A stretch of DNA of 64,000 nt from the NCBI RefSeq assembly GCF_000024785.1, contig NC_013441.1, positions 5,022,001 to 5,086,000 of the forward strand. The letters are read 5' to 3'. The position numbers and the translations under genes are program-made. The notes under the pieces were generated by a model. It worked only from the letters and a program-made list of their open reading frames with translations. It searched no databases and was not told where the DNA came from. The DNA is from Gordonia bronchialis DSM 43247. GTDB lineage: Bacteria > Actinomycetota > Actinomycetes > Mycobacteriales > Mycobacteriaceae. This document shows, piece by piece, positions 23,940-47,078 of the stretch; the stretch's first letter is position 1; the number at the start of each line of letters is the position of its first letter.

Positions 23940-24388
23940 CGATCAACCAGGACGGCCTGGTGTTCGTGGCAGACGAACGTCCACTGCAAGTGCCATGACA
24001 CTGGAGTGACACGGGGCCTCTCGGTCAGGCAGGCGGGGCAGAAGCGGGCACCGCTGTCGCGGGTGAACAGTGTCCATTGCGCGGTGGCGCTGCGTGATCG
24101 CTTGTAGCTGGACGGTGCGACCCCGACGTCTCGGTAGCAGCCGAGCGTCGCGGCCCTGATCTGGTCGATGTCGAGGTCGCACGCATCGGCCAGGTGGGCC
24201 ATGGTGGTGACGTCGGGATTCAGCAGGGCGTGTGTGGTGCGTTCCGAGGTGATGTCGAGCCGGCGCAGCATCACAGCAACGCTGACGTGGTAGTCGATCG
24301 CCATGGATTCGATCAGGCTCTCGAAGGTTTGGCCGGGGTCGAGTCGTGCCGCGAACGGGAGCCGGCGCACCGGTTCGTGCCCGGTCAT
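23858..24388 (-). CDS. tniQ: TniQ N-terminal domain (targeting protein), truncated by frame change
   Basis: A 176-residue TniQ domain beginning MTGHEPVRRLPFAARLDPGQ. It has a DNA-binding helical segment (ITSERTTHALLNPD) and a zinc-finger start (RFCPACL, then FVCHEHQAVLVDRCPRC). The remaining Cys pair of this finger (LCQN, VCGFDL) lies in the other frame, so this frame stops before the finger is complete. The start overlaps the tnsC stop as ATGA. The shift must lie between CPRCAHVPR and the LCQN codons. Confidence 0.8.
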   Translation of the reverse strand: MTGHEPVRRLPFAARLDPGQTFESLIESMAIDYHVSVAVMLRRLDITSERTTHALLNPDVTTMAHLADACDLDIDQIRAATLGCYRDVGVAPSSYKRSRSATAQWTLFTRDSGARFCPACLTERPRVTPVSWHLQWTFVCHEHQAVLVDRCPRCAHVPRSERTGGPTEWCHGSVRT

Positions 24389-25449
24389 GCGGCGATGTTC
24401 TTTCCCGCAGTGTTTTCCCAGTAGGACTGGGCGATGTAGTCCAGCGGCACCAGTCGCAGGATCTCCTCGGTGATCCGTTCGGATTTGGTGGCGATGGCAT
24501 AGCTCGCGGCGCGCGTGATCAGGTGATTGAGAGACACCAAATAACCTTGTGTCCGATCGTGAATCAACTGGGCGTGTGAGACGAGGTCGGTGGGTTCGTG
24601 CGCGGCGAGGACCAGTTGTTGTTCGTAGGCGGCCAGCAGGTCCTTCCACGCCCGTTTCCCCTCGCGTCCTTTGTTCGTGTATGCAGCGAGATTCACCGGC
24701 GTCCACCGGCGTCCGTTCTGAGAACTGGTGGTGTTGAAGGCTTTACCGTCGGTGTACAGGCCGCGGCTGGCGAGGTCGACTCCGGTGATGACGAGCGCAA
24801 CACCGAGGTCGTTGGAAACGCCCTTGATGAAGTTCGACACGGCCAGACCGTCCCTCGAGGTGGGGTCGACGAAATGCATGTCGTCGACGGCGATGATGCG
24901 GGTATCGGTGCGGTCGACATAGTCGATCAGCATCTCGTACAGTTCGTTGCGGCGAAGGGAGTCGGTGTCGACTTGTGCGCCGCCGTAGAACCTGAGCAGG
25001 GTCGCGACAACCGGTTTGAGTCCCGCTTTTGCACTCATACCGACGCGGCACACCGGGATCCGGTCATGTCCCCGATCGGTGCGCTCCCCGTACTTGCGCA
25101 GTTCTCGTCGCTCGAATTCTCGGAGGTATTCGTTGACGGTGGTGGTTTTCCCGACGCCGGCGTCCGCGTCGATGACGACTGACGGTTTGACTCTGTCGGA
25201 GTCCACCCGTAGGCCGGTGTCGAGGACCATGGTCATCAGAGCGTGTGCCTGGACCAGCTGGGGGGTTCGGATGACACCGAAGTTCGCGTGGAAGTCCAGT
25301 CGTCTGTCGTCGTAGTCCTCTCGCGCCTCATGGGTCAGCCGATTCAGCTCGCGCACGGTCAGTACGTCCGGGCGGGCTCTGCGTTCGGACGTCACGAACG
25401 CTCGCCAGCCCTCGCGGCGGGTCAGGTCCCATCGACCGGTGTGAATCAT
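24385..25449 (-). CDS. tnsC: TnsC/TniB-family AAA+ ATPase of the Tn7-like element
   Basis: A 354-residue AAA+ regulator. Walker A is at residues 94-103 (DADAGVGKTT), Walker B near 184-191 (RIIAVDDMHF), and a sensor-like segment VALVITGVDL follows. It links target recognition by TniQ to the TnsB transposase. ATG chosen because GGAGAGGAG lies just upstream; a TTG ten codons earlier is also open. It starts 26 bases after tnsB and overlaps tniQ. Confidence 0.88.
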   Translation of the reverse strand: MIHTGRWDLTRREGWRAFVTSERRARPDVLTVRELNRLTHEAREDYDDRRLDFHANFGVIRTPQLVQAHALMTMVLDTGLRVDSDRVKPSVVIDADAGVGKTTTVNEYLREFERRELRKYGERTDRGHDRIPVCRVGMSAKAGLKPVVATLLRFYGGAQVDTDSLRRNELYEMLIDYVDRTDTRIIAVDDMHFVDPTSRDGLAVSNFIKGVSNDLGVALVITGVDLASRGLYTDGKAFNTTSSQNGRRWTPVNLAAYTNKGREGKRAWKDLLAAYEQQLVLAAHEPTDLVSHAQLIHDRTQGYLVSLNHLITRAASYAIATKSERITEEILRLVPLDYIAQSYWENTAGKNIAA

Positions 25450-25475
25450 GCTCTCCTCTCCACTTCTGCTGTCAA

Positions 25476-27725
25476 TCAACGAATTTCGGGTGCCTGTGGG
25501 ACATAGTTTTCGTCATCGTCGTCATCGTCGTCATCGAGCCCGTCAGGTGCATGGGCGGTGAACGCGCCTAACCCGCCGGTGGGTTCCTCCTCGGCCGACT
25601 CCTCGTCGTCTGTCGCCGTCTCGTTGTCGGTGTCCTCGACGGGATCGGTGGGGCGCAGTTGCTCAGCACCCTCGCTTGCCACACCGGCGGCCCGCATACA
25701 CTCGGCCACGACATCATCGACCTCAGACAGATCCCAGGTCGAGATCTCTTCCAATTCAACGTGTTTCGGAGTTCTCTCCGGCGCGGCAAGGTCCGGGTCC
25801 AGTGCCGGACCCAATATCGTGTCGGCAGTGCCGCGCGTGCGCTTGTCGGACATGTGGACCGACCGTATGAGAGCGTTACGGTCATGGCGACTCATGTCAA
25901 TCGACGAAATACAGTCGACGAGAATATCTTTGGTCCGCTCCGGCGACTCTCCCCGGCGTAGAGCCCACTTACGCAGGACCGCATAGGTGTCTTCCGACAT
26001 CGGGCCGGTGAATTTGTGGGCGTGCTCCCACTCGAGTTCGTGCCAGCGATGTGTGCGCGGGTCCTGCACGTAGACACGGGTGATGTCGTCGGGGTTGTAG
26101 CGGATGGGCCACTGCCCGGCGTGGTGACCGGCATACGGTGAGACCCGGCCGTCGAAGGTGTTCAGGATATCGCCGCGATAGCGACGCTTCTTGCCGACCT
26201 CGAAACCGTAGTGGTGCAGTTTCCGCCACGCAGTCGGCAGGAACTCGACGAAGGCATACGGATCGCTGGCCATCCGCGCCAGCCCGTGAACCTCCACCGA
26301 GACCTCGTACATCCGGTTCGGGCTTTGCTTTTCGTGGGGGAAACGGGGATCCACCAGTCCTACGTGGCGGCGTTTGTGGTAGTGACGGGTGATCCAATGC
26401 CGAATGATATTTTCGATCTCGTCGACGAAGAAGAACGCGTCATCCTCCGCGTCGAGCCCCCGCGAATACACATCGGGGCCCTTGTAGCCGGGGAGACGCA
26501 TGATCAGTCGGCGTCGCAGACTGCCGAAAAACCGTTCTACCGTGGGCTTGTCGGTCGGTTTGTATGGCTGGGCAGGCCAGAGGTTGATGCCCTTGCGGTG
26601 GCAGACCTCCATAACGTGGGTGGAGATGAACGCTCGTCCGTTGTCCACGATCAGGTTCTCCGCGGCCACCAGTGGCATGCCCCAGTGGTGGCTGCGCTCG
26701 GTGAACACGATGTTCTCCGGCACTCCGTGGTAGTTCCAGGTGGTACGTGGGTTGATCGGGCCGCGGATCGGGCGTGGATGACAGGTCTCAAACAGAACGG
26801 TCGCGACATCAACGGCCTTCGTCGACACCGGTGTCACCGACAGCCCCACCACTGCCCGGGTGTAAAGGTCCATCGCGATGGTCAGCTGGCACTGCACCCA
26901 CCGCCTGGTCGCCGGCTCCATCGCGAAGACATCGAGGACCTGGGTGTCCATGATGACGTACTCGCCCGCGTGTGTCGGTTTCAGTTGACGCAGTGAGATT
27001 TCGGGTCGCTGAGCGATCGATCGGCGAGCTTTCGCCGACCCCTTGAAGGAGTTGAGATGCGAAAAGTTCTCTTTGACGTAGGCGTAGGCCGTCGACTTTC
27101 CCGGCACCCGCACGACGCCCTCGCCGAACTCCTCGATGAGTTCGTCCTCGACGTCCTCGAGGACTGGCGCGACATCCCACGTCGCGTCCCCGGTGCGGCG
27201 CGAAATGATCTCGCCGAGTTTGTCTTCCCAGCGGGGATCGATGGCGCTGCGGCGCCGGCGGGTCGCTTTCGGTCGGGTCACCCCCGTGGGGCCACCGGCC
27301 GCTTGCAGCTCATCGAGCTGGCGCCAGATTGTGCGTTCAGAGACCTGCCGTCTCGCGGCGAGCTCCTTGACACGCCGGGTCTTACCCGTGCGGGGAGCGG
27401 CTTGCTCGTAGTCGGAGATCTTGTCGAGTTCGGTACCGAAGATGACCCACAACAGTTCCCGTGTCTCCACAGACGCCTGCCGCTTGTCGGCATCCGAGGT
27501 CAGATTCCACTGGAGATCCTGCTCGATGGCGAGTGTCTCGCCGGCGCGCGTGCACGGCTGCGCCTCGGCGAAGAACGCCGCCATCGATATCGTGCGTCCG
27601 ATCTGGCGGCCCATGTCACGGGTGGTAACGCGCGTCGCGTCGTATGCATCGATCCGCAGCACATCGCCCCGGAACCGGACGTGGCTGCCGACATCCAGGG
27701 GCGCCGCCGCCTCAACGACGGGCAT
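25476..27725 (-). CDS. tnsB: TnsB/TniA-type DDE transposase of the Tn7-like element
   Basis: A 749-residue Mu/Tn7-type transposase. It has helix-turn-helix segments in the first 220 residues (LAARRQVSERTIWRQLDEL) and an RNase H-fold core with D260 (YVIMDTQVLDV), D361 (NLIVDNGRAF) and E397 (KPTVERFFG). A Mu-transposase C-terminal beta domain follows, then an acidic tail with a run of eight Asp near the end. The tail may contact TnsC. The ATG overlaps the end of tnsA by 14 bases. The core triad is complete, so strand transfer should be possible. Confidence 0.92.
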   Translation of the reverse strand: MPVVEAAAPLDVGSHVRFRGDVLRIDAYDATRVTTRDMGRQIGRTISMAAFFAEAQPCTRAGETLAIEQDLQWNLTSDADKRQASVETRELLWVIFGTELDKISDYEQAAPRTGKTRRVKELAARRQVSERTIWRQLDELQAAGGPTGVTRPKATRRRRSAIDPRWEDKLGEIISRRTGDATWDVAPVLEDVEDELIEEFGEGVVRVPGKSTAYAYVKENFSHLNSFKGSAKARRSIAQRPEISLRQLKPTHAGEYVIMDTQVLDVFAMEPATRRWVQCQLTIAMDLYTRAVVGLSVTPVSTKAVDVATVLFETCHPRPIRGPINPRTTWNYHGVPENIVFTERSHHWGMPLVAAENLIVDNGRAFISTHVMEVCHRKGINLWPAQPYKPTDKPTVERFFGSLRRRLIMRLPGYKGPDVYSRGLDAEDDAFFFVDEIENIIRHWITRHYHKRRHVGLVDPRFPHEKQSPNRMYEVSVEVHGLARMASDPYAFVEFLPTAWRKLHHYGFEVGKKRRYRGDILNTFDGRVSPYAGHHAGQWPIRYNPDDITRVYVQDPRTHRWHELEWEHAHKFTGPMSEDTYAVLRKWALRRGESPERTKDILVDCISSIDMSRHDRNALIRSVHMSDKRTRGTADTILGPALDPDLAAPERTPKHVELEEISTWDLSEVDDVVAECMRAAGVASEGAEQLRPTDPVEDTDNETATDDEESAEEEPTGGLGAFTAHAPDGLDDDDDDDDENYVPQAPEIR

Positions 27726-33657: not shown

Positions 33658-36600
33658 GTGCCCAGCCAACTCGCTGTCGAGACCGTCACCCGCCTTGCGC
33701 GCCGCACCCCGGCGAGGCCAGAGGCGGAGATCCAGGCCGACATCTACATGCTGTTGACCACTTCAGGCCTCGGCCTCGACTCTGATGACGTCGTGAAGAT
33801 GGAGTCGCAGGTTGCCGACGGCACGCGGCGTCGCATCGACATCGAAGCGGGTCACGTCGTCATCGAGGTGAAGAAGGATCTCCGCGTCGGAAATCTCGCC
33901 GACTACGAGGAGCAGCTCGCGGGGTATGTCCAGCAGCGTCACATCGAGCTCGGTAGCCGTTACGTCGGCATCTTGACTGACGGCACCGGGTGGCGACTGT
34001 ACAACCTGAGGGACGGGGTGCTCGTCGCTGTCTCCGAGCTCGAACTGAACCCGAGTGCGCCGGACGTCGACCATCTTCTGGTGTGGCTGGAATCCGTCAT
34101 GGCGACCAGGGACCAGATCAAACCCACTCCGCAGGAGATCGAAGATCGCCTCGGTGCCGAATCTCCCGGCCATCAGCTCGATCACGCGTCCCTCGCGGCT
34201 CTATTCGAAGCGAACATTGACCACGCAGAGGTGAAGCTCAAGCGCGAACTCTGGGCCAAGCTGCTTCGTACCGCGTTCGGCAAGGGCTTCGTCGATGACC
34301 CCGACCTGTTCATCAACCACACGCTGCTGGTGATTACCGCCGAGCTTATCGCCCACGCCGCGATCGGATGGGACGTCTCACCCAGTGGCGGCCTGTCGCC
34401 GATTCAGCTGACGTCAGGTACGGAGTTCCAGCAGGCCCAGATTCACGGTGTCGTCGAGGCCGACTTCTTCGATTGGGTGGTACAGGTCGATGGCGGTCAA
34501 GAGTTCGTCGCAGAACTCGGTCGGCGCATCGCACGATTCGACTGGACCAAGGTCGAGCACGACGTTCTCAAGATCCTCTATGAATCGGTAATCGCCCCCG
34601 AGGAGCGTCAACGCCTCGGGGAGTACTACACGCCGGACTGGCTCGCGGATCGGGTAGTCGCGGCAACCGTCACTGACCCGCTCGGCTCGAGAGTGGCCGA
34701 CCCCAGCTGCGGGTCTGGGACGTTCCTGTTCCATGCGATCAGGCGGTACCTGCGGGCAGCCGATGACGCGGGGACTGCCAGTGCGGCCGCGGTGGACGAG
34801 GTCACGGCGCACGTGATTGGGATGGATGTGCACCCCGTCGCCGTCACTCTCGCCCGGGTCACTTACCTGTTGGCGATCGGACTCGACCGACTCAAGGATG
34901 GTGAGCGGGGACCGCTGGCGATTCCCGTCTACCTCGGGGACTCGATGCAGTGGGAGCAGAGCCGCGACCTCATCGGAGGCGTGGACAGGGTGACTATCAG
35001 CACGGAGGGCGATTCCATCATCGCCGGCGGCGGCGGTGTTCTCTTCGGTGACGACTTGGTCTTCCCGCGCAGCATCCTCGGGGACGCTGGCCGGTTCGAT
35101 CGCCTGGTCTCGGAGATGGCAGACAAGGCCCTCGACACGTCCAACAAGAAGAACGGAACGTTGATCGACCCCGTCCTGAGGCGGTTCAACATCACCGAGG
35201 ACGAGGCCGAGATCCTGCGTGAGACATTCGCCACCATGCGGGCACTACACAAGTCGGGAAAGAACCACATCTGGGGCTACTACGTCCGCAACCTGATCCG
35301 CCCCCTGTGGCTGGCTGAGCCCGACAACCGCGTCGACGTGCTCGTGGGTAACCCGCCATGGCTGCCCTACGCGAAGATGACCGCCGCGATGCAGGAGAGC
35401 TACAAGAAGCTGGCTAAGCCGCGCAACTTGCTGACCGGCGGGCTAGGGGCGGCCAGCCGTGATCTATCCACCCTCTTTGTCGTGCGAGCAGTGGAGCTAT
35501 ACCTGCGTCCCGGTGGCGCGTTCGCGTTTGTGATGCCGTACGGGATTCTTACCCGTAAGCCGCACACAGGCTTCCGCACCGGCAAATGGATGACGAGGAA
35601 CTCGGAACACCTCGCAGTGGAGTTCGGAGTCAGCTGGGGCCTGGCCGATGTCACAACCGGTTTCCCCATGGTGTCCTGTGTAGTCCACGGCAAGCGCTCG
35701 GCGTCGGCTTCCCCGATCGGGGAAGCCATCAGCACTTGGACCGGATACCTCGCGCGACCGGATATTCCGTGGGAAGAGGCGAAGGACAAGATCACGATCG
35801 GCGATGGCGCTGTGTCTGCGCACGATGCCGGCGCCGTGAGGCCGGAGTCGCCGTACAAGAAGGAGTTCCGTCAGGGCGCCGTTCTCGCTCCGCAGATGGT
35901 TCTCTTTGTCCGTGAAGTACCTGCAGGCCCACTCGGCGCCGGAGCGGGCCGAGTGTCGGTGACGTCCAATCGCAGCACCTACGAGCCGAAGCCTTGGAAG
36001 CACCTGGCCGCGATAAGCGCGACGGTCGAGACGAAGTTCGTTCGTCCTACATACCTCGGTATGACTGTGCTTCCCTACCGCACACTGGAACCGCGGCGAA
36101 CTGTACTCCCGGTCAACGACGCCGATGTGCTCGAAGAGTCAGCCATCGATGACCACCCCGGGCTCAAGTCCTGGTGGGACCAGGCTGAGGAACTGTGGGG
36201 CGCGAACAAGTCGGAGTCAGACAAGGGAAAGCTGCTCGACCGCATCGACTTTCACGGGCAGCTGTCGGCACAACTCCCAGTCGCTTCGATCCGAGTTGTC
36301 TACACGAAGACTGGGAACAAGCTCGCAGCGGCGATAGTGCGCGACTCACGGGCGATCATCGACTTCTCCCTGTACTGGGCCGAGGTCTCGACCGAGTCGG
36401 AAGCGCGGTATCTGTGCGCGGTGCTGAACTCGGGCACGGTGCTGGAGAGGGTGAAACCTCTTCAGACACTGGGCCTATACGGCGCGCGACACTTTGACAA
36501 GTACGTGTTCCTGGTGCCGTTCCCAAAGTACGACAACACCGACGACCTGCACCTTGAGATCGCTTCTCTCGGCGAGAAGGCGGAGAAGCTCGCAGCGACC

Positions 36601-36726
36601 GTCGATGTGTCCTCGGCGCGTACGTTCCAGGCGGCGCGGAAACTGATTGTCCAGGCGGTTGCGGACGCCGGTATCGGCGCGGCGATCGACGCCGCGGTCG
36701 CCAAGCTGGTGCCGGCGGAAAGCTGA
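33658..36726 (+). CDS. Single-chain restriction-modification enzyme (N-terminal nuclease plus N6-adenine methylase)
   Basis: A 1022-residue protein of Type IIG/IIL design. The N-terminus holds a PD-(D/E)xK nuclease with D61, E70 and K72 (RRRIDIEAGHVVIEVKKDL). The methylase core has motif I near residue 347 (ADPSCGSGTFLFHAI) and motif IV near 564 (LVGNPPWLPY), typical of N6-adenine methylation. The C-terminal ~400 residues are the likely target-recognition domain. Such enzymes modify one strand and cut unmodified DNA. The GTG start has no strong upstream site. The gene ends nine bases from the stop of the converging, broken helix-turn-helix gene. Confidence 0.88.
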   Translation: MPSQLAVETVTRLARRTPARPEAEIQADIYMLLTTSGLGLDSDDVVKMESQVADGTRRRIDIEAGHVVIEVKKDLRVGNLADYEEQLAGYVQQRHIELGSRYVGILTDGTGWRLYNLRDGVLVAVSELELNPSAPDVDHLLVWLESVMATRDQIKPTPQEIEDRLGAESPGHQLDHASLAALFEANIDHAEVKLKRELWAKLLRTAFGKGFVDDPDLFINHTLLVITAELIAHAAIGWDVSPSGGLSPIQLTSGTEFQQAQIHGVVEADFFDWVVQVDGGQEFVAELGRRIARFDWTKVEHDVLKILYESVIAPEERQRLGEYYTPDWLADRVVAATVTDPLGSRVADPSCGSGTFLFHAIRRYLRAADDAGTASAAAVDEVTAHVIGMDVHPVAVTLARVTYLLAIGLDRLKDGERGPLAIPVYLGDSMQWEQSRDLIGGVDRVTISTEGDSIIAGGGGVLFGDDLVFPRSILGDAGRFDRLVSEMADKALDTSNKKNGTLIDPVLRRFNITEDEAEILRETFATMRALHKSGKNHIWGYYVRNLIRPLWLAEPDNRVDVLVGNPPWLPYAKMTAAMQESYKKLAKPRNLLTGGLGAASRDLSTLFVVRAVELYLRPGGAFAFVMPYGILTRKPHTGFRTGKWMTRNSEHLAVEFGVSWGLADVTTGFPMVSCVVHGKRSASASPIGEAISTWTGYLARPDIPWEEAKDKITIGDGAVSAHDAGAVRPESPYKKEFRQGAVLAPQMVLFVREVPAGPLGAGAGRVSVTSNRSTYEPKPWKHLAAISATVETKFVRPTYLGMTVLPYRTLEPRRTVLPVNDADVLEESAIDDHPGLKSWWDQAEELWGANKSESDKGKLLDRIDFHGQLSAQLPVASIRVVYTKTGNKLAAAIVRDSRAIIDFSLYWAEVSTESEARYLCAVLNSGTVLERVKPLQTLGLYGARHFDKYVFLVPFPKYDNTDDLHLEIASLGEKAEKLAATVDVSSARTFQAARKLIVQAVADAGIGAAIDAAVAKLVPAES

Positions 36727-36735
36727 TCCGCCGGG

Positions 36736-36782
36736 TTACGCCACCCGCCGCCGCACATCCTCGACGCGGATCAGCCACGCTC
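36736..36782 (-). pseudogene. 3' end of the helix-turn-helix gene cut off by the IS3 insertion
   Basis: Joined to the 5' part at 41103-41484 after removing one CTC repeat, the frame reads ...GSETPMPGAWLIRVEDVRRR and ends VA-stop. The seamless join shows the two fragments were one gene. The remaining 3' part is about 15 codons. Confidence 0.85.
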
Positions 36783-36812
36783 TGAATCGCCCCGGCTTTG
36801 CTGGAGGCTCGT

Positions 36813-36944
36813 TTAGTTGGTTCCGGCCTCTGTTGGGACCGTGTTCTCACGGTAACTGGTGACCGTGTGGGTTGCCCAGTAGGTAGCTTCGTGCTCGACG
36901 GGCGGGGCGTGTCCGATCTCGCCGTGCAACCGTCGGTGGTTGAA
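36813..36944 (-). pseudogene. C-terminal part of the interrupted IS3 OrfB
   Basis: The minus strand reads FNHRRLHGEIGHAPPVEHEA and then YWATHTVTSYRENTVP to a stop, the standard end of an IS3 OrfB. It continues directly from ...VAEYIDW at 39903, on the far side of the inserted element. Confidence 0.88.
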
Positions 36945-36974
36945 CTTATGTGGGTGATCGGCGTCAAGAGCCGG

Positions 36975-38804
36975 TCATGAGGCGTCGGTGTCGAGTCGTT
37001 CGAGGAGTCCGTCGAAGACCTTGGCTCGGCCAACTTGGCCCTTGTGTGCGGCGTCGTCGCGTTGGGCTTGGAGGGTGGGACGGAACTCGATGGTGGTGAC
37101 GAAGAAGCTGCAGGATTCGCAGATCGATTCGAAGTGGCAGTCCATGTCGACGGGCCGGGCACAGTATCCGTTGCCGAGCATGCGGCGGTGCATTTCGGCG
37201 CGGAGCTTGCGCATCTCGGAGCCTTCGTCGGTGTCGGGAAGGTGTGGCGGCTGGTCGTAGAGTGCTTCGACCTTTTCGGTGACGGAGAAGTACTGCTCGG
37301 CCACTGTCCTGTCGGCGATGCGGGCGTAGACCATGGTCATGGCGAGCGTTTTGTGGCCGAGCAGAGCGGCGATGGCGTCGAGCGACATGCCCCGGTTGAT
37401 GGCCTGGGTCGCGAGGGTGTGGCGCAGTTGGTGAGCGGTGACATGTCCGATCCCGGCGGCTTCGGCGTGCCGGTCGAGCGCGGCCGTCACTCGGTGGCTG
37501 GTGATCGGGCGGTGGTTCTCAACGAGCAGCCGGCTGGTGCGGATGCCGGTGGGACGGTGGTTGTCGATCCAGTCGTCGAGGAGTTCTTTGAGTTGGGGGT
37601 GTAGTGGTATGTAGCGGTCATTGTGCATCTTGCCCAATGGGATTCGTAGCCAGAAGGCTGTGCCGATCTGGACCACGGCATCGGTGGTCAGTCCGAGTAG
37701 TTCGCTAATGCGGATGCCTGTGCGGGCGAGTAATTCGACGATCAGACGGGACAGGGGGTCGGTATCTGCGCGGGCGGCGCGGAGAAGTTTGGTGGCGGCC
37801 CCGTCGTCAAGGAATCTGGGCAGTGGCTTGTCGATGATCGGTAGGTCCCCGATGAAGACCAGCGGACGCACCGGTGCGTTCGGGTAGTCCCAGTCGGTGA
37901 TCCGGTCGAAGAAGCAATGCAGGTTGATCAGAGCGTTCTTGATGCTGCCCCGGTTCAACGGTTTCCCGGTACGTGGGGTGGGTGTGGTGGACAGCCACTT
38001 CTTGAACTCCTCGATGTGAACGCGTTGCAGCTCAGCGCAATTCGCGATCTGTGGGTGGGTGTCGGTCAACCACGAACCGAAGCGCCGCAGGTCGTGTTCG
38101 ATGCCGGTGACCGTATTGGGTCGCAGGCTCAGGGTGACCTGCTCGATGTAGCGGCGAGCGGTGGTCGCGTAACCGTGTGTGATCGTCGCCCAACCGGTCG
38201 TCGCGACTGGCTGATGGTTCGACGGGCGCCGCCAGGTGGACAGTTTCTCGGCATGGAACAGGGTCAGCTGGAGCTGGTTGAACATACCCGCGAGGTTGCG
38301 GCCGGCCTCGGGCAGTCCCCGCATCCGGTAGCTCGCCAGGAGCGCTTCGCGAGCCGGGAAGAACTCTGTATCACCCACTGCGGCAGGAGGAGTCGCGGTC
38401 ATCGCGGAGATCTTGGCCAGTAGATTCCACTGGCCGGTGATCCGCGAGCCGCTGATCTCGACTGTCTCGCACGCCTCGAGAAACCAGCGGTAGTCCTGCG
38501 GGCAGTGGGAACGTGCGGCGTATCCCAGATGCAGATTCAGCGAGCTGATCAACTCGGCATCGGCACGCAGCTGCCCGGTGACCATCAGCCAGGACGCGAA
38601 TGAGCGCGCTTTCCCGACGACCTCGAGCCGCTGCGGCGAGGTCAAGCAATGCCAGCCGCCGGCGCGACTCACTCGCCTCTGGCAGGTTTCGGCTGCCTGT
38701 GTCGTGGAGCGCCCGGTCTTGAGTCCTGCCGCGCGCATCGCCGCGAGGTAGCTGGCGACGATGTGTGCGTCGTTGCCGGACAAATCGGCGGCCGCGGCCA
38801 TCAT
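36975..38804 (-). CDS. TnpB-like tyrosine recombinase (Tn554 type)
   Basis: A 609-residue recombinase, close to the ~630 residues of Tn554 TnpB. The catalytic domain shows Arg in LLARTGIRISELLGL, the H-x-x-R box in TAHQLRHTLATQAI, and the LGHKTLAMTMVYARI segment with the nucleophile Tyr. A Cys-rich tail follows (DMDCHFESICESCSFF). The long N-terminal half is probably DNA-binding. The ATG overlaps the end of the other recombinase as ATGA. It should act with its partner for strand exchange. Confidence 0.9.
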   Translation of the reverse strand: MMAAAADLSGNDAHIVASYLAAMRAAGLKTGRSTTQAAETCQRRVSRAGGWHCLTSPQRLEVVGKARSFASWLMVTGQLRADAELISSLNLHLGYAARSHCPQDYRWFLEACETVEISGSRITGQWNLLAKISAMTATPPAAVGDTEFFPAREALLASYRMRGLPEAGRNLAGMFNQLQLTLFHAEKLSTWRRPSNHQPVATTGWATITHGYATTARRYIEQVTLSLRPNTVTGIEHDLRRFGSWLTDTHPQIANCAELQRVHIEEFKKWLSTTPTPRTGKPLNRGSIKNALINLHCFFDRITDWDYPNAPVRPLVFIGDLPIIDKPLPRFLDDGAATKLLRAARADTDPLSRLIVELLARTGIRISELLGLTTDAVVQIGTAFWLRIPLGKMHNDRYIPLHPQLKELLDDWIDNHRPTGIRTSRLLVENHRPITSHRVTAALDRHAEAAGIGHVTAHQLRHTLATQAINRGMSLDAIAALLGHKTLAMTMVYARIADRTVAEQYFSVTEKVEALYDQPPHLPDTDEGSEMRKLRAEMHRRMLGNGYCARPVDMDCHFESICESCSFFVTTIEFRPTLQAQRDDAAHKGQVGRAKVFDGLLERLDTDAS

Positions 38805-39820
38805 TGCTCCGAAAGGTTCTGGGCATCAATGGCTTCCATTGCTCGTCGGTACTCGCTGGCGAGCCAGTCGTTGGCCAGGTGTAGGTAGATCCGAGTCGAC
38901 TCGATCGAGCGGTGGCCAGCCTGGGACTGGATGGCTTCCAACGCCATCCCGGCCTCGCGTAGCCGGGTAAAACAGGTGTGCCGCAACTGATGGCACGTCA
39001 GCTGCTCGATGCCTGCACGGCGCCGCGCGCCGGCGATGATCTCGTCGAGTCCGGCGGCGCTGAGTGGTTGCCCGCGACGGGGACCCTTGAGCACGACGAA
39101 CAGGCGATCGGTGGCCGTATCCTGTGGACGCTCCCGATTCAGATAGTCGGTGACCGCGGTGAAGAAGCGTGTCGAGATCGGCACGATTCGCTGATGCCCG
39201 CCCTTTCCTTCGGCGATAAACACCCGTCTTTCACCAGGATTGAGATCGTTCAACCCGAGTCCGAGGACTTCGCAGCGTCGCAGACCGCCGAGCAGCATCG
39301 CGGCCACCATGGCCCGGTCACGGTCCGTGCGCAATGACGCGACGAATGCGTCGGCTTGCGCGGGATCGAGCACCCGTGGCAACGTCCGCGGCGCCCGGAT
39401 CAACGGAACTCCCCGCACTGCCCGGCCCGGACTCCGAGTCGCTAGTCCTCGCGGCACGGGATTCGCCGTCACGACACCACGGATTCGCAGATACTCGTAG
39501 AGCCCGGCGATGCTGGACAACCGGCGCTTGATGGTGCGCGCCGACAATCCCTGCTCGCCGTCCTCGATGCGTACGACCGTCGCACCCCGACGCGGCTGAC
39601 GCTGCTGCTTGAGGAAGTCGAGCACGTCATCGACGCTGACCTTCTCGGGTTCTCGGTCGACGACCTCGAAGAACACCTTCAGGTCGTAGGCGGTCGCCAG
39701 GACTGTGTTCGGTCGCGCCCGCGTGGCAACCAATTCGAGATAGTCGTCAACCAACTCGTGCCCGAGTGACACCATTCGGCCGCCGGTACTTGCGCCGCGC
39801 ACCAGACAGGGATCGAACAC
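38801..39820 (-). CDS. TnpA-like tyrosine recombinase (Tn554 type)
   Basis: A 339-residue integrase: core-binding domain LVDDYLELVATRARPNTVLA, Arg in AMLLGGLRRCEVLGLGL, H-x-x-R in LTCHQLRHTCFTRLREAG, and the Tyr segment AGHRSIESTRIYLHLAND. GTG chosen because GGGAGG lies six bases upstream; the open frame extends back through the element border into IS3 sequence and cannot be coding there. It pairs with the larger recombinase downstream. Confidence 0.88.
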   Translation of the reverse strand: MFDPCLVRGASTGGRMVSLGHELVDDYLELVATRARPNTVLATAYDLKVFFEVVDREPEKVSVDDVLDFLKQQRQPRRGATVVRIEDGEQGLSARTIKRRLSSIAGLYEYLRIRGVVTANPVPRGLATRSPGRAVRGVPLIRAPRTLPRVLDPAQADAFVASLRTDRDRAMVAAMLLGGLRRCEVLGLGLNDLNPGERRVFIAEGKGGHQRIVPISTRFFTAVTDYLNRERPQDTATDRLFVVLKGPRRGQPLSAAGLDEIIAGARRRAGIEQLTCHQLRHTCFTRLREAGMALEAIQSQAGHRSIESTRIYLHLANDWLASEYRRAMEAIDAQNLSEQ

Positions 39821-39902
39821 CACGCACCTCCCGAGTCGAGGGTCCGCCTGCCCTGTAGCTATCACCAGCAGACACGCCGAGATCACCTGCATATCGTGAC
39901 CA

Positions 39903-40730
39903 GTCGATGTACTCGGCGACGGCGATCTCGACGTCGCCGACACTGCCCCAACCGCCCTTCGGGCGCATGATCGGGTTACGGATGCACTCGGCCTTGAACA
40001 ACGAGTTGAACGCTTCGGCCATCGCGTTGTCGTACGAATCACCTTTGGAGCCAACAGAAGTCACCGCGTCAGCCTCGGCGAGACGTTCGGTGTAGCGGAT
40101 GGCTCGATATTGCACTCCGCGGTCGGAGTGGTGAATCAGCCCGGCCACATCCTGACCGGCACGCGAACGCGCCCACAAGCCCATGTCCAAGGCATCCAAC
40201 GCGAGGTCGGTGTGCATGGTGGTTGAAACCTGCCAGCCGACGACTATCCGCGAGAACACGTCGAGAATGAACGCCGCGTACACCCAGCCGGAGTGGGTGC
40301 GGATGTAGGTCAGGTCCGCGACCCATAGCGCGTTGGGCGCCGCCGCGGTGAATTTCCGCTTGACCCGGTCTGCCGGCTGTGGGGTCTGGGCTCCCTCACT
40401 GCGCGTGGTCTTACGCGTCTTCGACCGTGGTATCCCCTGTAGCCCATCGGCTTTCATCAATCGTTCGACAGTGCAGCGAGCCACCTCAATATCCTTTCTG
40501 CGGAGTTCGGCATGGACCTTGCGGGCACCATAGACGCCGAGATTGGCGGCGTGCACAGTGCGGATCTCACCGAGCAACTCGCGGTCACGAACTGCTCGTG
40601 GCGCTTCGACTCGCCGAGAGCTCAGATGGGTTCGTACCGTGGACGGAGCGATCTGGGCGGCCGTATCTCGCAGGGCCTCGCAGGTCGGATCGACCCCGTG
40701 TTCGCCGCGAAAGGCGGCAACGAACTCCAC
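39903..40730 (-). pseudogene. N-terminal part of the interrupted IS3 OrfB
   Basis: It starts MEFVAAFRGEHGVDPTCEAL and has Asp in LWVADLTYIRTHSG, Asp in LIHHSDRGVQYRAI and Glu in DNAMAEAFNSLFKAE. The frame runs to VAEYIDW and then into unrelated residues of the inserted element. Rejoined with 36813-36944 it is a complete OrfB, so the interruption is the only obvious damage. Confidence 0.9.
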
Positions 40731-40732
40731 AA

Positions 40733-41059
40733 TTAGCGCTGTGGGCGGTCGATCTCCGCGGCGAAAAAAGCCGATGCCTGCTTGAGGATCGTGTTCGCCC
40801 GCCGCAGCTCACGGTTCTCCCGCTCCAACTGGGCGATCCGGTCAGCGTCACTGGTCGTCGTACCCGGGCGCTGCCCACCATCGATCTCGGCCTGTTTGAC
40901 CCAGGTCCGTAGCGCCTCCGGGTGCACACCCAACTGATCGCCAATCCGTTTGAGCGCTCCCGGCCGCGTGGCCGGGTCCTGATGGGCTTCCACCGCCATC
41001 CGCGTCGCCCGCTCCTTCAGCTCAACACTGTACTTCCGTGGTGCTGCCATGCTCTCCAT
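40733..41059 (-). CDS. IS3-family transposase OrfA (fourth type)
   Basis: A 108-residue protein (MAAPRKYSVELKERATRMAV from the second Met), with a helix-turn-helix (DQLGVHPEALRTWVKQAE) and a zipper-like coil (RIAQLERENRELRRANTILK). The frame is intact. It ends three bases before orfB. Confidence 0.9.
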   Translation of the reverse strand: MESMAAPRKYSVELKERATRMAVEAHQDPATRPGALKRIGDQLGVHPEALRTWVKQAEIDGGQRPGTTTSDADRIAQLERENRELRRANTILKQASAFFAAEIDRPQR

Positions 41060-41102
41060 CCTTCACAGGCTCGAGAGCCACCGACAAACCCGGGGCGGTT
41101 CA

Positions 41103-41484
41103 CTCCCGGCATCGGCGTCTCCGAGCCCGCCCGCACCGCCTCCTGCTGCCCCTTGCGGATACGCACGTTCATCGCCTGCGAGGTGATGCCCGCCAGCTCC
41201 GCGACCTCGGCAGTGCTGAGCCAGCCGTGCTCCCGGCGCCACTCGGCTGAGGCCTTACGGCTGCGGGGCACGGCAGCGACCCACTCCGGCCGCGTGACGA
41301 TGCGGTCGTCGACGCGCGTGGAGGGCAGGCGGCCGTCGGCGATCATCCGAGCCACCGTGTCGCGGTGCACGGAGAGCAGCTCCGCGGCGTCGTCGATCGC
41401 GAGGAATCCCTCGGCGTGGAGAGCCGCCTCTTCGCGACGGAAGCGTGCGCGGAGGCCTTCGGCGGCGCGCTCGGAGGGGGTCAT
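41103..41484 (-). pseudogene. Helix-turn-helix (excisionase-like) protein, truncated by IS3
   Basis: Two helix-turn-helix segments are visible: LAIDDAAELLSVHRDTVARM with MIADGRLPSTRVDDRI, and WLSTAEVAELAGITSQAMNV with RIRKGQQEAVRAGS. This is the pattern of excisionase-type DNA-binding proteins. The ATG overlaps the resolvase stop as ATGA, so it was co-transcribed with it. The IS3 element removed the last ~15 codons, which lie at 36736-36782; most of the DNA-binding part is intact, so some activity may remain. Confidence 0.82.
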
Positions 41485-42044
41485 GCGGCGGACTCCTTCT
41501 CCTCAGCGAGTGCGCGGTACACCGTCGCCCGGCTCGCGCTGAGCGACTTGGCGATCTCGTCCACGCCGACGCCGCCGGCCCGGAGGAGGCGGGCGTGCCG
41601 CTTCTGCTCCGCCGTCAGCTTCGCCGGTCGGCCACCGTACCGGCCCTGCGCGCGGGTAGCTTCGAGACCGGCACGGGTGCGCTCGATCAGCAGGTCCCGT
41701 TCCATCGCGGCGAGGGCGGCCAACATCGTGTAGACGAATCGGCCCATCGCGGTGCTGGTGTCGATCTGCTCGGTGAGGGAGACCAGGCCGATGCCGTCAC
41801 GCTCGAACTGCTCGCCGAGATCCACGAGGTGCTTCATGCCCCGGCTGAGCCGGGACAGGGAGTAGACGACGACGGTGTCGCCGGGGCGAAGGTCCGGGAG
41901 CATCGCGTCGAACCGCGGCCGGGACACCGCGGCGCCCGAGACGCCGTGGTCGATGTAGAGGGCGTCGACGTCGGCGCGTTCGAGCGCCCGCACCTGAAGC
42001 GCTTCATCTTGCTCGTCCGTGGATGTCCAACGACAGTGACTCAC
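41481..42044 (-). CDS. Serine recombinase (resolvase/invertase) with an unusual N-terminus
   Basis: A 187-residue small serine recombinase: LYIDHGVSGAAVSRPRFDAM, VVVYSLSRLSRGMKHLVDLG, FVYTMLAALAAMERDLLIER with the long E-helix, and a C-terminal helix-turn-helix (VDEIAKSLSASRATVYRAL). The first strand is abnormal: instead of the usual Y-A-R-V-S-T-D-E-Q it reads SHCRWTSTDEQDEA. The Ser is present but the Tyr and the normally spaced Arg are not, so the start may be damaged by an indel or recombination. Upstream codons give no better start. Confidence 0.75.
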   Translation of the reverse strand: MSHCRWTSTDEQDEALQVRALERADVDALYIDHGVSGAAVSRPRFDAMLPDLRPGDTVVVYSLSRLSRGMKHLVDLGEQFERDGIGLVSLTEQIDTSTAMGRFVYTMLAALAAMERDLLIERTRAGLEATRAQGRYGGRPAKLTAEQKRHARLLRAGGVGVDEIAKSLSASRATVYRALAEEKESAA

Positions 42045-42235: not shown

Positions 42236-43165
42236 TCAGGCCACCTCCGCCACGGAGGCGACGCTGTCACGATAGCGCGTCTCGTACTCGACGGGTGAGC
42301 AGTAGCCCAGGGAGGAGTGCAGCCTCTCGGCGTTGAACCAGTGCACGTAGGCGGCGGTCTCTCGTTCGACCTCGCCGCGGTCCTTCCAGGCGCGGCCGGT
42401 GTCGATCAGTTCGGTCTTGTACAAGCCGATCGCCGACTCCATGAGCGCGTTGTCGAGCGCATCGCCGACCGATCCTATGGATCCGGTGATGTTGGCCTCG
42501 GTCAGCGCAGCGGTGAATGCCAACGATGTGTACTGACTGCCCGCATCGCTGTGATGAACCAAACCGGTTGCGGTGAAGTCGAATCCGGATCGGCGGCGGA
42601 CGAACAACGCTTGCTCGACAACACTCGTCACCAACGGTGTGTGCTTGCTCGCCATGACTCGCCACCCGAGGATGCGTCGCGAAAACACATCCACGAGGAA
42701 CGCGACGTAGACAAACCCCGCCAATGTCCACACATACGTGAAGTCGGCCACCCACCACTGATCCGGATGTGTCGGTGTATCCCATTGTCGTTCAACATGA
42801 TCAGGGAATCGTGGCGCCCTATCGTCTCGGTGGGTCGTGGTGGTGCGATGGCTGCCGCGTACAGCACCGGAGATGCCGCAGATCCCCATCAGCCGGCCGA
42901 CCTGATCACGACCCATCACGTGACCGGCGCGCCACATCGTGTGATACATCTTGCGCACCCCGTACACACCGCGGTTCTTCTCGAACTGCTGGTAGACGGC
43001 ATGAGCGGCGTAGGCCTCCTCGAGCATCGCTGCCGAGACCAGGCCACGCTGCTTGTGGGCATAGTAGGTGGATGGGGCAATCTGCATTCCGTACTCGGTG
43101 AGTACCCGGCAGATCGGATCGACCCCGAACCTGTCCCTGTGATCGTCGATGTACTCGACGATCAA
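42236..43165 (-). CDS. IS3-family transposase OrfB (copy 2)
   Basis: 309 residues, differing from copy 1 by Val for Ala in LFVRRRSGFDF. The catalytic Asp, Asp and Glu segments (VADFTYVW, HHSDAGSQY, LMESAIGL) are all present. The ATG overlaps the orfA stop. Confidence 0.92.
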   Translation of the reverse strand: MIVEYIDDHRDRFGVDPICRVLTEYGMQIAPSTYYAHKQRGLVSAAMLEEAYAAHAVYQQFEKNRGVYGVRKMYHTMWRAGHVMGRDQVGRLMGICGISGAVRGSHRTTTTHRDDRAPRFPDHVERQWDTPTHPDQWWVADFTYVWTLAGFVYVAFLVDVFSRRILGWRVMASKHTPLVTSVVEQALFVRRRSGFDFTATGLVHHSDAGSQYTSLAFTAALTEANITGSIGSVGDALDNALMESAIGLYKTELIDTGRAWKDRGEVERETAAYVHWFNAERLHSSLGYCSPVEYETRYRDSVASVAEVA

Positions 43166-43488
43166 CGAAGTCGGCGGTCGATCTCCGCCGCGGCGAAAAA
43201 CGCCGACGCCGTCTTCAAAATCTCATTGGCTCTGCGCAATTCGGAATTCTCACGACGCAGCTCACGCACCTGAGCATCCAACTCCCCACTGGTCGTACTC
43301 ACCCCCGAGGAGACCACCGGCGTGTCCTTCTCGATCCAGTTACGCAACGTCGCCTGATTGATATCGAGCATCTCGGCGACATGCCGGCGCGCCGCCGACT
43401 TCGACCCGCCCACCTCGCCGAGCCGATCCTGATACATCCGCACCGCACGCTCACGCGTCTCCTGGTCAAACTTCCGTGGTGCTCCCAT
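43162..43488 (-). CDS. IS3-family transposase OrfA (copy 2)
   Basis: 108 residues with the same protein sequence as OrfA of copy 1. Silent changes are present, and a base outside the gene directly next to the start differs (CCCATAACAG versus CCCATGACAG). Confidence 0.9.
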   Translation of the reverse strand: MGAPRKFDQETRERAVRMYQDRLGEVGGSKSAARRHVAEMLDINQATLRNWIEKDTPVVSSGVSTTSGELDAQVRELRRENSELRRANEILKTASAFFAAAEIDRRLR

Positions 43489-44319: not shown

Positions 44320-46569
44320 CTAGCCCCGCGCCATATCCACGAACCGCGACAAATGCAGTTGATGCGCAACGGTAATCGTGGCCGTCGGACCATTACGGTG
44401 CTTGCCCAGAATGATGTCCGCTTCACCCGCACGCGGGTCGTCCCGTTCGATGGAGTCCGGCCGGTGGAGCAGGATGACCATATCCGCATCCTGCTCCAGT
44501 GATCCCGACTCGCGAAGGTCCGACACCTGCGGCTTCTTGTCCGTCCGCTGCTCGGGTCCACGGTTGAGCTGACTGATCGCGACCACCGGAACCTCGAGTT
44601 CCTTTGCGAGCAGCTTCAATTGGCGGGAGAACTCGGAGACCTCCTGCTGGCGGGATTCGACCTTCTTACCCGAGGTCATCAGCTGCATGTAGTCGACGAC
44701 GACGAGTTTGAGGTCGTTGCGCTGCTTGAGGCGTCGGGCCTTGGCGCGGATCTCCATCATGGTCAGGTTGGGTGAGTCGTCGATGAACAGCGGCGCCTCG
44801 GAGATCTCGCCCATGCGCCGGGCCAGGCGGGTCCAGTCGTCGTCGCTCATGCTGCCGCCGCGCATGTCGCCGAGTTTGATCTTGGCTTCGGCCGAGAGCA
44901 GTCGCATGACGATCTCGGTCTTGCTCATCTCCAGGGAAAACATGGCGGCGGTCATGTGATGGCTGATGGAGCACGACCGCAGGAAGTCCATGGCCAGCGT
45001 CGAATTGTGGGTGGGCACCATGGCCTCGCCCGCCAGGTATAGGGCGTCGGGGTTGTCGACCTGCACGCAGCGCACCGGCACCGAATCGACCGGCCGCACC
45101 ACGACCACCCGGCGGATACCTGCGGCGCGTCGAAGTTCCTTGTGCCGCAATGCTTTGTGGTGAACAGTGAAGACGTCATCATCGGCGTCGACGCGCAGCC
45201 AGCCGGTGACCGAGCGCTTGTAGTTGTAGCCGAGACCGGCGACCAGATCGGCCACCACCGCGGTCATGTGCCGGGTCGCGGCGGGCACGGTGATCCAGCC
45301 GTCGTCGTCGACGGTGGCCCGCGCATCGAGCAGACCCGCCAGCAACGCCCGGCGCTGAGCGATCGAACCGCGCAGATACTCGTACGGGATGCGCCCGCCG
45401 AGATCGGCCATCAACGTCATCACGTCGACGGGACCCTCGGCGTCGATGCGCATCGCGATCTCTGGGTCGTTGAAGGCCATGCCGGCCAGCGCGGCCACCG
45501 TGTAGGGGCCGTAGGCAAAACGCTTGCGCGGCAACTCCAATGGCTTGGTGTTGCGGACCACCGCACAGCCCACGTGCGACCGCAGGACCTCGGTGGTGAC
45601 CACCTGTGACTCGTTGTCGACGTCGACGATCCACTGATGCTGCTCGTCGGCGACGAGGACCGTGCCGTCGTTGAACTCGACCTCGTAGCAGGGCCGGTCG
45701 GTCATCACGTCGGTCGCGGCGACGACCCGCGTCGGGCAGCCCTGCGCATCGATCAACTGATCGCCGACGGCGACCCGGCCCATGGTGGTCCAGCCGGTGG
45801 GGGTGGGCAGCGGGGTGTCGAGCGCGAGCGCCTTACCCACACCCGGGCGGGCGGCGACGATGATCATCTGACCGGGGTGTAGACCATTGGTCACCGCGTC
45901 CAGATCGGCGAAACCCGTTGGTACGCCGAGAGATATACCGCCGCGCGACGCGATGGAGTCGATCTCGTCCATCGTCGGCTGCAGGAGTTCCTCGAGCGGG
46001 ACGTAGTCTTCGGCGGTGCGTCGCTCGGTGACCTCGTACACCTCGGCCTGGGCGCGGTCGACCACCTCGGCCACGTCCTGACCGTCGGCCCCGGCGTAAC
46101 CGAACTGCACGATGCGCGTTCCGGCCTCCACGAGACGACGCAGGATGGCCTTCTCCGCGACGATCTCCGCGTAGTAGCCGGCGTTGGCCGCAGTCGGCAC
46201 CGTGGAGATCAGGGTGTGCAGGTAAGGCGCGCCGCCCACCCGGCGCAGTTCTCCCGCGCGTTCGAGCTCGGCGGCCACCGTCACCGCGTCGGCGGGCTCA
46301 CCCTTGCCGTACAGCTCGAGGACCGCCTCATAGACCGCCTGATGCGCAGGACGGTAGAAGTCCGCGGTGCGGAGCTTCTCCACGACGTCGGCGATGGCGT
46401 CCTTGGACAGCATCATCCCGCCGAGGACGGATTGTTCGGCAGCGAGGTCTTGTGGCGGTTGCCGACCGAACTCTTCGGGTGGCGGCTCGTCGTCCTGACG
46501 GCGCCCATTACCCCCGTTGAAGCCCCGACCTCTGGCCGCGTCATGCCCTCGGTCATCCACAACAGCCAC
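44320..46569 (-). CDS. dnaB: Replicative DNA helicase DnaB containing an intein
   Basis: 749 residues, of which ~473 are helicase after intein removal, the usual DnaB length. The N-terminal domain starts near FGRQPPQDLAAEQSVLGGMM. The RecA-type core has Walker A split by the intein (AARPGVGK / STLAMDF), Walker B in LKLVVVDYMQLM, and motif H4 near ISQLNRGPEQRTDKKPQVSD. The helicase unwinds DNA at the fork. GTG at 46569 is chosen because it gives the conserved start VAVVDDRGHD and removes an unlikely leader. The gene belongs to the conserved dnaB-rplI-rpsR-ssb-rpsF neighbourhood. Confidence 0.93.
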   Translation of the reverse strand: MAVVDDRGHDAARGRGFNGGNGRRQDDEPPPEEFGRQPPQDLAAEQSVLGGMMLSKDAIADVVEKLRTADFYRPAHQAVYEAVLELYGKGEPADAVTVAAELERAGELRRVGGAPYLHTLISTVPTAANAGYYAEIVAEKAILRRLVEAGTRIVQFGYAGADGQDVAEVVDRAQAEVYEVTERRTAEDYVPLEELLQPTMDEIDSIASRGGISLGVPTGFADLDAVTNGLHPGQMIIVAARPGVGKALALDTPLPTPTGWTTMGRVAVGDQLIDAQGCPTRVVAATDVMTDRPCYEVEFNDGTVLVADEQHQWIVDVDNESQVVTTEVLRSHVGCAVVRNTKPLELPRKRFAYGPYTVAALAGMAFNDPEIAMRIDAEGPVDVMTLMADLGGRIPYEYLRGSIAQRRALLAGLLDARATVDDDGWITVPAATRHMTAVVADLVAGLGYNYKRSVTGWLRVDADDDVFTVHHKALRHKELRRAAGIRRVVVVRPVDSVPVRCVQVDNPDALYLAGEAMVPTHNSTLAMDFLRSCSISHHMTAAMFSLEMSKTEIVMRLLSAEAKIKLGDMRGGSMSDDDWTRLARRMGEISEAPLFIDDSPNLTMMEIRAKARRLKQRNDLKLVVVDYMQLMTSGKKVESRQQEVSEFSRQLKLLAKELEVPVVAISQLNRGPEQRTDKKPQVSDLRESGSLEQDADMVILLHRPDSIERDDPRAGEADIILGKHRNGPTATITVAHQLHLSRFVDMARG
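45004..45831 (-). other. Class 3-type intein in the DnaB Walker A motif
   Basis: A 276-residue insert between Gly-Lys and Ser-Thr of the P-loop. It begins with Ala, not Cys or Ser (ALALDTPLPTPTGW), has Trp in DEQHQWIVDV and Cys in VRCVQVDNPD, and ends with MVPTHN before the +1 Ser. Ala at position 1 with this Trp-Cys-Thr set is the signature of class 3 inteins as described for mycobacterial and mycobacteriophage DnaB inteins. One LAGLIDADG-like motif is degenerate (LLAGLLDARATVDDDG), so the homing nuclease may be inactive. Confidence 0.88.
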
Positions 46570-47078
46570 GTGTGTCAAACCTCTCGGAACGCTTTGGTGT
46601 TGGTATGCCCCTGTGATACCCCGGCCCACCGACAGTGCCTGTCGGAGGAGAGACGGGTCGTCGTTTCGAGGCGCTGAGGGAGGACACTAAGACCTCCTTG
46701 CCTGCTACTCAAACCCGGCTGTTGATAGTTCTGGGGAGCATCTGTGGACGAAGTGTGAGGCGCGCAGGAGTCGTTGTGCACCGGCTGTGGACAACATGAG
46801 GAATTGTTCTGTGAGCAAACGGGTTCGTGCAGGTCAGAGCGGTGAGCAATTTCCACAATCAACGATTTTCCTTCGCGCGGCGTGTCTTGCGAATGGCAAT
46901 GTCGGGCGTGTTGCGGACCGAAATCAACCCCTGGTGCCAACTTTCGGATGAACATCAGATGTGATGTACGTAACACCAGGTCACAGCAGGTTCACTCGAA
47001 GCCGGTCAAGTGGGGCGGTCGTCCCAGATGTGGAAGTTCCGGCCGCACGCGATCGACGGCTGTGATGCAATAGCGGGC
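46570..47078. promoter_or_regulatory. Divergent intergenic region upstream of dnaB with DnaA-box-like words
   Basis: 509 bases between dnaB and the divergent secreted protein gene. TGTGGACAA at 46786-46794 is the complement of TTGTCCACA, the actinobacterial DnaA-box consensus. TGTGGACGA at 46743-46751 is a near match. They could tie dnaB expression to DnaA, but two boxes can occur by chance. No other gene is seen. Confidence 0.4.

Follow-up and report, generated by a model that had tools for sequence, protein, structure and literature searches.

Tn554 of Staphylococcus carries two tyrosine recombinases between imperfect inverted ends and inserts site-specifically (PMC3414803; PMC10214605). 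Van Houdt et al. (2012) described related actinobacterial pairs, Famint36/Famint41, in which a short and a long tyrosine recombinase lie adjacent and in the same direction and no TnpC is present; pREL1 of Rhodococcus erythropolis PR4 is among the replicons in their Table 2 (PMC3414803). TnpC is said there to influence orientation in Tn554, and a later account of Tn554-related elements and of strand-biased circularizing integrative elements (SEs) reports that the six left-flank bases of one site turn up as a copy in the right flank of the site occupied next (PMC10214605). Here we analyse a window of 64,000 bp from Gordonia bronchialis DSM 43247 (NC_013441.1, positions 5,022,001 to 5,086,000; the window is the whole stretch examined), in which a helix-turn-helix (HTH) gene is split by an insertion sequence (IS) of the IS3 family and that IS3 is split by a two-recombinase element. 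This innermost layer is very probably a minimal site-specific transposon that integrates at the DNA of conserved codons in the IS3 transposase gene orfB, with relatives that integrate at other conserved codons.

The three-layer nest is confirmed. Its outer layers are listed below in window coordinates, with the caret in this and later motifs marking the junction at which an element sits.

36736..41484, minus strand: HTH (excisionase-family) gene, 141 aa, split by the IS3 (HTH_17; TIGR01764; uninterrupted relative P0121)
41103-41484 and 36736-36779, minus strand: 5' and 3' parts of the HTH gene, with the CTC repeat counted once
36780..36782: left copy of the IS3 target repeat CTC, 3 bp
41103..41105: right copy of the IS3 target repeat CTC, 3 bp
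36783..41102, minus strand: IS3-family insertion sequence with the inner element and both inverted ends (4320 bp; 1365 bp without the element)
40733..41059, minus strand: IS3 orfA, uninterrupted, 108 aa (HTH_Tnp_1)
36813..40730, minus strand: IS3 orfB, split between W and F of EYIDW^FNHRRLH (13 uninterrupted siblings)

The inner element is composed as follows.

36946..39900, minus strand: inner element of 2955 bp whose edges can shift by 2 bp; two tyrosine recombinases are the only genes assigned
39881..39894, minus strand: tnpA-side end, ATATGCAGGTGATC
39895-39900: tnpA-side hexamer GTCACG, outside the end, travelling with the element
36946..36959, minus strand: tnpB-side end, GATCACCCACATAA, an imperfect inverted repeat of the other end
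36940-36945: hexamer GTTCAA beyond the tnpB-side end, belonging to the target
38801..39856, minus strand: tnpA, tyrosine recombinase of ~351 aa, start approximate (PF00589, 6.2e-33; PF02899; Xer-type solved structures)
36975..38804, minus strand: tnpB, long tyrosine recombinase of 609 aa overlapping tnpA by 4 bp (PF00589, 6.2e-29, at residues 332-498)

The two recombinase genes occupy nearly all of the 2955 bp between 14-bp inverted ends, with only 29 bp separating the stop of tnpB from the right end and no tnpC. Their sizes (~351 and 609 aa), shared direction and 4-bp overlap agree with the Famint36/41 pattern of about 350 and more than 600 aa in adjacent genes. A Rhodococcus plasmid locus (L075, NC_007491) is 64% identical in TnpA and 47.5% in TnpB; from its plasmid and anatomy we infer that it is the very pair listed in Table 2 of PMC3414803. 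Judged by sequence, the inner element is a member of the Tn554-related actinobacterial pairs described in 2012. Residues H458, R461, H484 and Y493 of TnpB are invariant, and the N-terminal part, which precedes the region used in a structure-library comparison (residues 206-510), is predicted to be an additional helical stretch of ~200 residues.

Against these likenesses stand several differences. Unlike Tn554, the inner element lacks the third gene tnpC, elements of its type occur in both orientations, it has many target copies where Tn554 has a unique site, and its tnpA-side six bases stay with it instead of being copied to the right of the next site. SEs additionally carry Tfp and Srap genes, absent here, and their core hexamer is described as moving from left to right flank, which is not seen at these loci (PMC10214605). 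RIT elements have three recombinase genes and the present element two. For the Famint36/41 pairs, section 10 of PMC3414803 names no target gene and speaks only of several similar attB sites as possible; titles and abstract openings in the open-licence literature yielded no report of transposase genes as targets of such elements, which counts only weakly as a sign that none exist. In outline the machinery has been described before. What appears, as far as these sources go, to be unreported is which genes are targeted and how exactly, the division into four target classes and the way the hexamers behave, all described below.

Both joins of the nest can be read against uninterrupted DNA. The orfB piece scores 251 bits against NF033516 (cut-off 160), the IS is bounded by inverted ends TGAACCGCCCCGGG and TGAATCGCCCCGG with CTC on both sides, and five of the six siblings examined (of 13) have both ends and a 3-bp repeat, the left end not being found in the remaining one. 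In its orfA/orfB layout, inverted ends, 3-bp repeat and score above the NF033516 cut-off this host layer thus resembles other IS3 members, and it differs in being interrupted. Excising the IS3 with its CTC repeat rejoins the HTH gene, as the first-pass annotation of this DNA had predicted: P0121 (141 aa, one substitution) reads through as TPMPGAWLIRVEDVRRRVA, and three further relatives (P0122-P0124, 80-85% identical) keep the same layout at the insertion point. The HTH piece had zero matches in the plasmid set (E 1e-8), and within the genus it was found in one of 59 genomes, the source genome itself.

At the inner join, the minus strand runs GAGTACATCGACTGG, element, (G)TTCAACCACCG; the left flank ends in GAC TGG, the insert starts TCACGATATGCAGGTGATC and ends GATCACCCACATAA, and the right flank resumes as (G)TTC AAC CAC. 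The unit whose removal restores the frame is 2955 bp. The earlier proposal, excision of 36946-39899, rightly rejoined orfB but set the border one base off, leaving an extra G and a shifted frame. Because GT is common to both edges, three placements of the unit are equivalent (36944-39898, 36945-39899 and 36946-39900). The claim that all borders were known almost to the base stands for the IS3 (36783-41102, with CTC) and needs amending for the inner edge, which slipped by one base and can move by 2 bp. In the genome assembly searched (5,290,012 bases, two contigs), OrfB had 18 matches of at least 79% identity: three are interrupted, 13 are uninterrupted and two end before the site (residue 202 or 191). 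The alignment to uninterrupted copies that the first-pass annotation had recommended bears out its inner join, since all 13 element-free siblings (L013-L025) read TGGTTCAACCACCG straight through, and compared with them the element's flanks have zero bases lost or duplicated. Tn554 likewise inserts without target duplication. No uninterrupted relative contradicts either join, and sibling IS3 copies, HTH relatives and IS3 ends together uphold the nesting, the IS3 and Tn554-like labels and the CTC repeat.

Going beyond that annotation, we find that the inner element's insertion was targeted, not random. The genome holds three copies (the window, L009 and L010), differing from one another by 1-2 of 2954 bases and all placed at the OrfB junction EYIDW^FNHRRL. 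Their host IS3 are 85-90% identical in protein; to the left of the insert, 138-218 of 1200 bases (11-18%) are different between hosts, the first such differences lying 4-22 bases from it, and to the right they begin 13-16 bases from it. Chance is excluded, because three copies lie at one codon of three different IS3, and site-specific insertion accounts for them better than homologous recombination, because exchanges would be needed within those few bases each time.

Two further features of IS3 copies in this genome were recorded. The base four before the junction (window 39903) is C in the window copy and L010, G in 12 siblings and A in L009 and L025; we dropped it as a candidate for a base carried by the element, since its position is beyond the six-base core and ordinary variation among IS copies can account for it. 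Window positions 42236-43488 hold another IS3-family element, distinct from the first, in a group at 38-39% identity with eight full-length matches, two of them in the window; the five copies fetched (L036-L040), which have a GGTTCAA core, are uninterrupted.

The same precision is found among relatives, which comprise 24 loci from species genomes and further loci from plasmids and other genomes. Alignment of their edges revealed shared ends with variants, namely ATATGYRGGTGATC at the tnpA edge and GATCACCCRCATAA at the tnpB edge, and their flanks were identified by translation and hidden Markov models (HMMs). In all, 20 sites in transposase or recombinase genes fall on four codon junctions. 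The first is IS3 OrfB DW^FN, with four sites (the window, L009, L010 and L050), where the target encodes D or E, then W, then after the junction F or Y and N in most hosts seen; at L050, in Mycobacterium sp. SM1 (TnpA 74%), the same junction is used in a very different IS3, whose protein reads SW^YN. The second is IS3 OrfA LKxAS^AFFA, with ten sites in nine hosts (L042, L045, L047, L049, L051, L075, L077, L079, L087 and L088; L047 and L049 share an IS3 host), all showing GC-N6 in host orientation; both junctions are present at eight of the ten and the tnpB-side junction only at two. The third is the LLG^H box of tyrosine recombinases, with four sites (L050b, L074, L078 and L085), of which L050b lies inside the tnpB of the L050 element, that is, the tnpB of its own kin. 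The fourth is the IS21 transposase (KSAKEVM^EI), with two sites: L082 with L086, which are one element, and L076, placed here by the likeness of its flank to L086. Assignment followed a reading of the conserved motif for L085, the left piece of L074 and L086, where the HMM match was weak or missing, and for L078 and L076, where no HMM was run; the L082 piece matches NF033546 at 4e-13, below the curated cut-off.

In Rhodococcus, one element shows 0 differences in 2950 bp at six loci in five plasmid records and sits in three different IS3, once reversed (L087). The reversed site fits the lack of TnpC. At two of the loci (L089 and L090) the flanks repeat those of L075 and L088, and L091 joins the flanks of two sites: its left flank is that of the L087 site and its right flank an IS of the L075 type, an arrangement that recombination between two copies of this element would produce.

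Other nests and end-like junctions were observed in these collections. In Mycobacterium sp. SM1 (L050, 8294-11267) a class-3 element lies in the tnpB of a class-1 element that itself lies in an IS3, making another multi-layer nest. The tnpB of an IS21-targeting element (L097, G622:C3:74000-90000) is broken at QLRH^T by ~6 kb encoding other recombinase-like proteins, and in the recombinase to the right of L078 that RH^T codon too is joined to foreign sequence with a similar end; another element family may have this codon box of recombinases as its target. Two tnpA-side ends of a short-TnpB element stand in tandem at L062 (5804 and 5910), 106 bp apart, possibly the footprint of repeated insertion.

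Target choice appears, from recombinase phylogeny, largely to follow the recombinase clade. In the TnpA tree (33 rows) the six target labels, with "unknown" as one, need 6 changes against a minimum of 5, and the TnpB tree (34 rows) requires 7; shuffled labels averaged 13.4 and 16.0 changes, respectively, and 0 of 200 shuffles was as low in either tree. Both trees omit near-identical copies (L009, L010, L047 and L087-L091); the TnpA tree also omits rows below 225 aa or with a matched span below 150 residues, and the TnpB tree omits L050 (nested) and spans below 110 (L078 and L079). The tyrosine-recombinase and short-TnpB classes each form one group in both trees, and the OrfB class likewise groups together in the TnpA tree, while the TnpB tree has just one row of it. 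Within the long-TnpB clade (17 TnpB rows) a target was found for 13 rows, two of which (L082 and L086) stem from the same element, and in each of the 13 it is a transposase or recombinase gene. The N-terminal extension is missing from the sister clade, also of 17 TnpB rows, whose best matches start at residue 164 or beyond in the window TnpB and whose members adjoin TGCCGA-type hexamers, often with palindrome-like arms, as judged by eye. L054, a short-TnpB member, abuts an IS3-like end, and L068 has a short TnpB yet falls in the long-TnpB clade.

The hexamers at the two edges behave differently. On the tnpA side the hexamer is constant in all three elements known from more than one site: GTCACG in three hosts, ATCATG in three and GGCTTG in two. 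On the tnpB side it varies with the site, and for the GTCACG element it is the same six bases as in the 13 element-free siblings, that is, the target's own. The footprint described for Tn554, with six left-flank bases copied to the next right flank, is not seen here, and the SE/Tn554 rule was rejected on the constant left hexamer at different sites. In the simplest model, the element would insert conservatively beside the six-base core GTTCAA, which would be kept on its tnpB side without target duplication, and would carry GTCACG along on its tnpA side. TnpA and TnpB would catalyse these steps, probably via a circular or similar intermediate, with the target DNA recognised by arms around the hexamer and a putative role for the TnpB N-terminal extension. 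The interrupted transposase would presumably lose function, and the element may benefit from riding on IS copies.

The anatomy, the ends, the target positions, insertion without loss or duplication, the constant left hexamer and the near-identical copies in diverged hosts are read directly from the DNA. Several points nevertheless weigh against targeted transposition as the explanation. Excision, a circular form and transposition are deduced from sequence comparison. For five of the 20 target sites (L045, L079, L078, L085 and L076) a single junction is the evidence, and some flank pieces have no HMM match or one below the curated cut-off. The window's own class comprises only two element lineages with known context, the window element and L050. 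No target was identified for four of the 17 long-TnpB rows (L068, L081, L083 and L084), nor for L066, L067, L072 and L073; end-like sequences are present at L066, L067/L068 and L072/L073. In the trees, the OrfA class is not one clade and needs two changes in both, with L051 apart; two changes are likewise required for the IS21 class in the TnpB tree, with L086, a fragment of the L082 element, set apart on a long branch.

A different history of the nest is compatible with targeting: the IS3 may have been loaded with the inner element elsewhere, after which the whole 4320-bp unit entered the HTH gene, driven in trans by a sibling transposase. The first-pass annotation had called the order of events certain, which does not follow, since nesting gives topology only; under composite movement layers two and three would have formed in the reverse order. 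Because both IS3 ends and the repeat are kept and element-free siblings exist, the loaded IS3 may have entered as a unit: both ends and a 3-bp repeat surround the loaded IS3 here (CTC) and at L010 (AAC), the 13 siblings could provide transposase, and an element-free copy of the window's own IS3 was not found in the genome, the best sibling being 90% identical. Against this, the genome yielded no further copy of this loaded IS3 either. IS3 transposases, moreover, act mostly in cis. Genome G080 offers a parallel: two of its loci (L099, 782-5087, reverse strand; L100, 1146-5452) hold an IS3 into which a related element is inserted, and they are 99.84% identical over 4308 bp and differ outside. 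The shared block stops at the IS3 ends or a few bases from them, and the other full-length copies of that IS3 stretch in G080 reach 92-93% identity at most. The pair possibly reflects transposition of a loaded IS3 as a unit, without proving it: one locus has a CGA repeat, the other no matching 3-bp repeat, and independent entry of the element into each of two identical IS3 copies would look no different. We hold composite movement at this locus to be a tentative but serious possibility, somewhat short of probable.

Targeting itself would be called into question if the inner element had entered one IS3 and then reached the matching position in others through homologous recombination or gene conversion, making its position uninformative. 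The three hosts are indeed related IS3, and the C four bases before the junction in the window and L010, against G in the 12 nearest siblings, is what a short conversion tract could leave. Yet these hosts diverge so close to either side of a near-identical 2955-bp insert, and the same codon is occupied in the very different Mycobacterium IS3. For the identical Rhodococcus element, in three different IS3 and once reversed, conversion is untenable. Those sites and the host divergence near the junction led us to reject this explanation, which we consider very improbable. That an ordinary Tn554-like transposon with relaxed targeting struck transposase genes through their abundance is scarcely credible and was rejected. 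In its favour, Tn554-related pairs are known in Actinobacteria (PMC3414803) and IS3 matches are many here (36 in the genome), but abundance cannot account for 20 sites on four exact codon junctions.

The element is rare in the genomes sampled, in counts that include the source genome where it was sampled. It was found in five of 397 genomes of the order (E 1e-60), three of 401 of the family (1e-80) and four of 396 of the phylum (1e-80), and in two of 17, two of 28 and two of 24 genomes of further samples; TnpA was found in one of 335 genomes of the class (1e-100). No TnpB relatives were found in viral contigs. At one locus with a TnpB of 77% identity (L093, G749), the element is truncated and no element end was found.

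The window around the nest holds further genes. A 1022-aa N6-adenine methyltransferase (33658-36726; Eco57I-like, with weak MAD2/PglX likeness) ends at most 10 bp from the end of the broken HTH gene, and a serine resolvase (41481-42044) lies directly upstream of that gene with a 4-bp overlap; the resolvase and HTH pair may itself be mobile. Tn7/Tn5053-like transposition genes at 24385-27725 encode a TniB-like ATPase and a 749-aa protein with a Mu-transposase C-terminal domain. The C-terminal domain of a 769-aa DnaB helicase (44320-46629) matches in two stretches, from which we infer interruption by an intein. A 614-aa CHAT-domain protein (14139-15983) and two DDE_Tnp_1_4 transposase open reading frames (7576-8952 and 12800-13666) lie farther to the left.

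tRNA genes and other conserved genes of the host serve many site-specific integrators as landing sites. Here the conserved site lies in mobile elements of other kinds, which lets a single integrator colonise many different IS copies, probably at small cost to the host, and in the same act interrupt the transposase of each. The ends and the target rule permit exact annotation, which matters for the many relatives that, among the at least 120 TnpB homologues listed, are named only "integrase/recombinase XerD" or left unnamed. With like ends and four target classes sorted largely by recombinase clade, these elements form a natural series for studying how tyrosine recombinase specificity changes. 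We think it likely that this clade of paired recombinases has specialised as parasites of mobile elements, each lineage using one conserved codon run, silencing its hosts and being carried by loaded IS. If that is true, the landing sites of each lineage would scale with IS load, and target switching may be tied to the N-terminal extension of TnpB.

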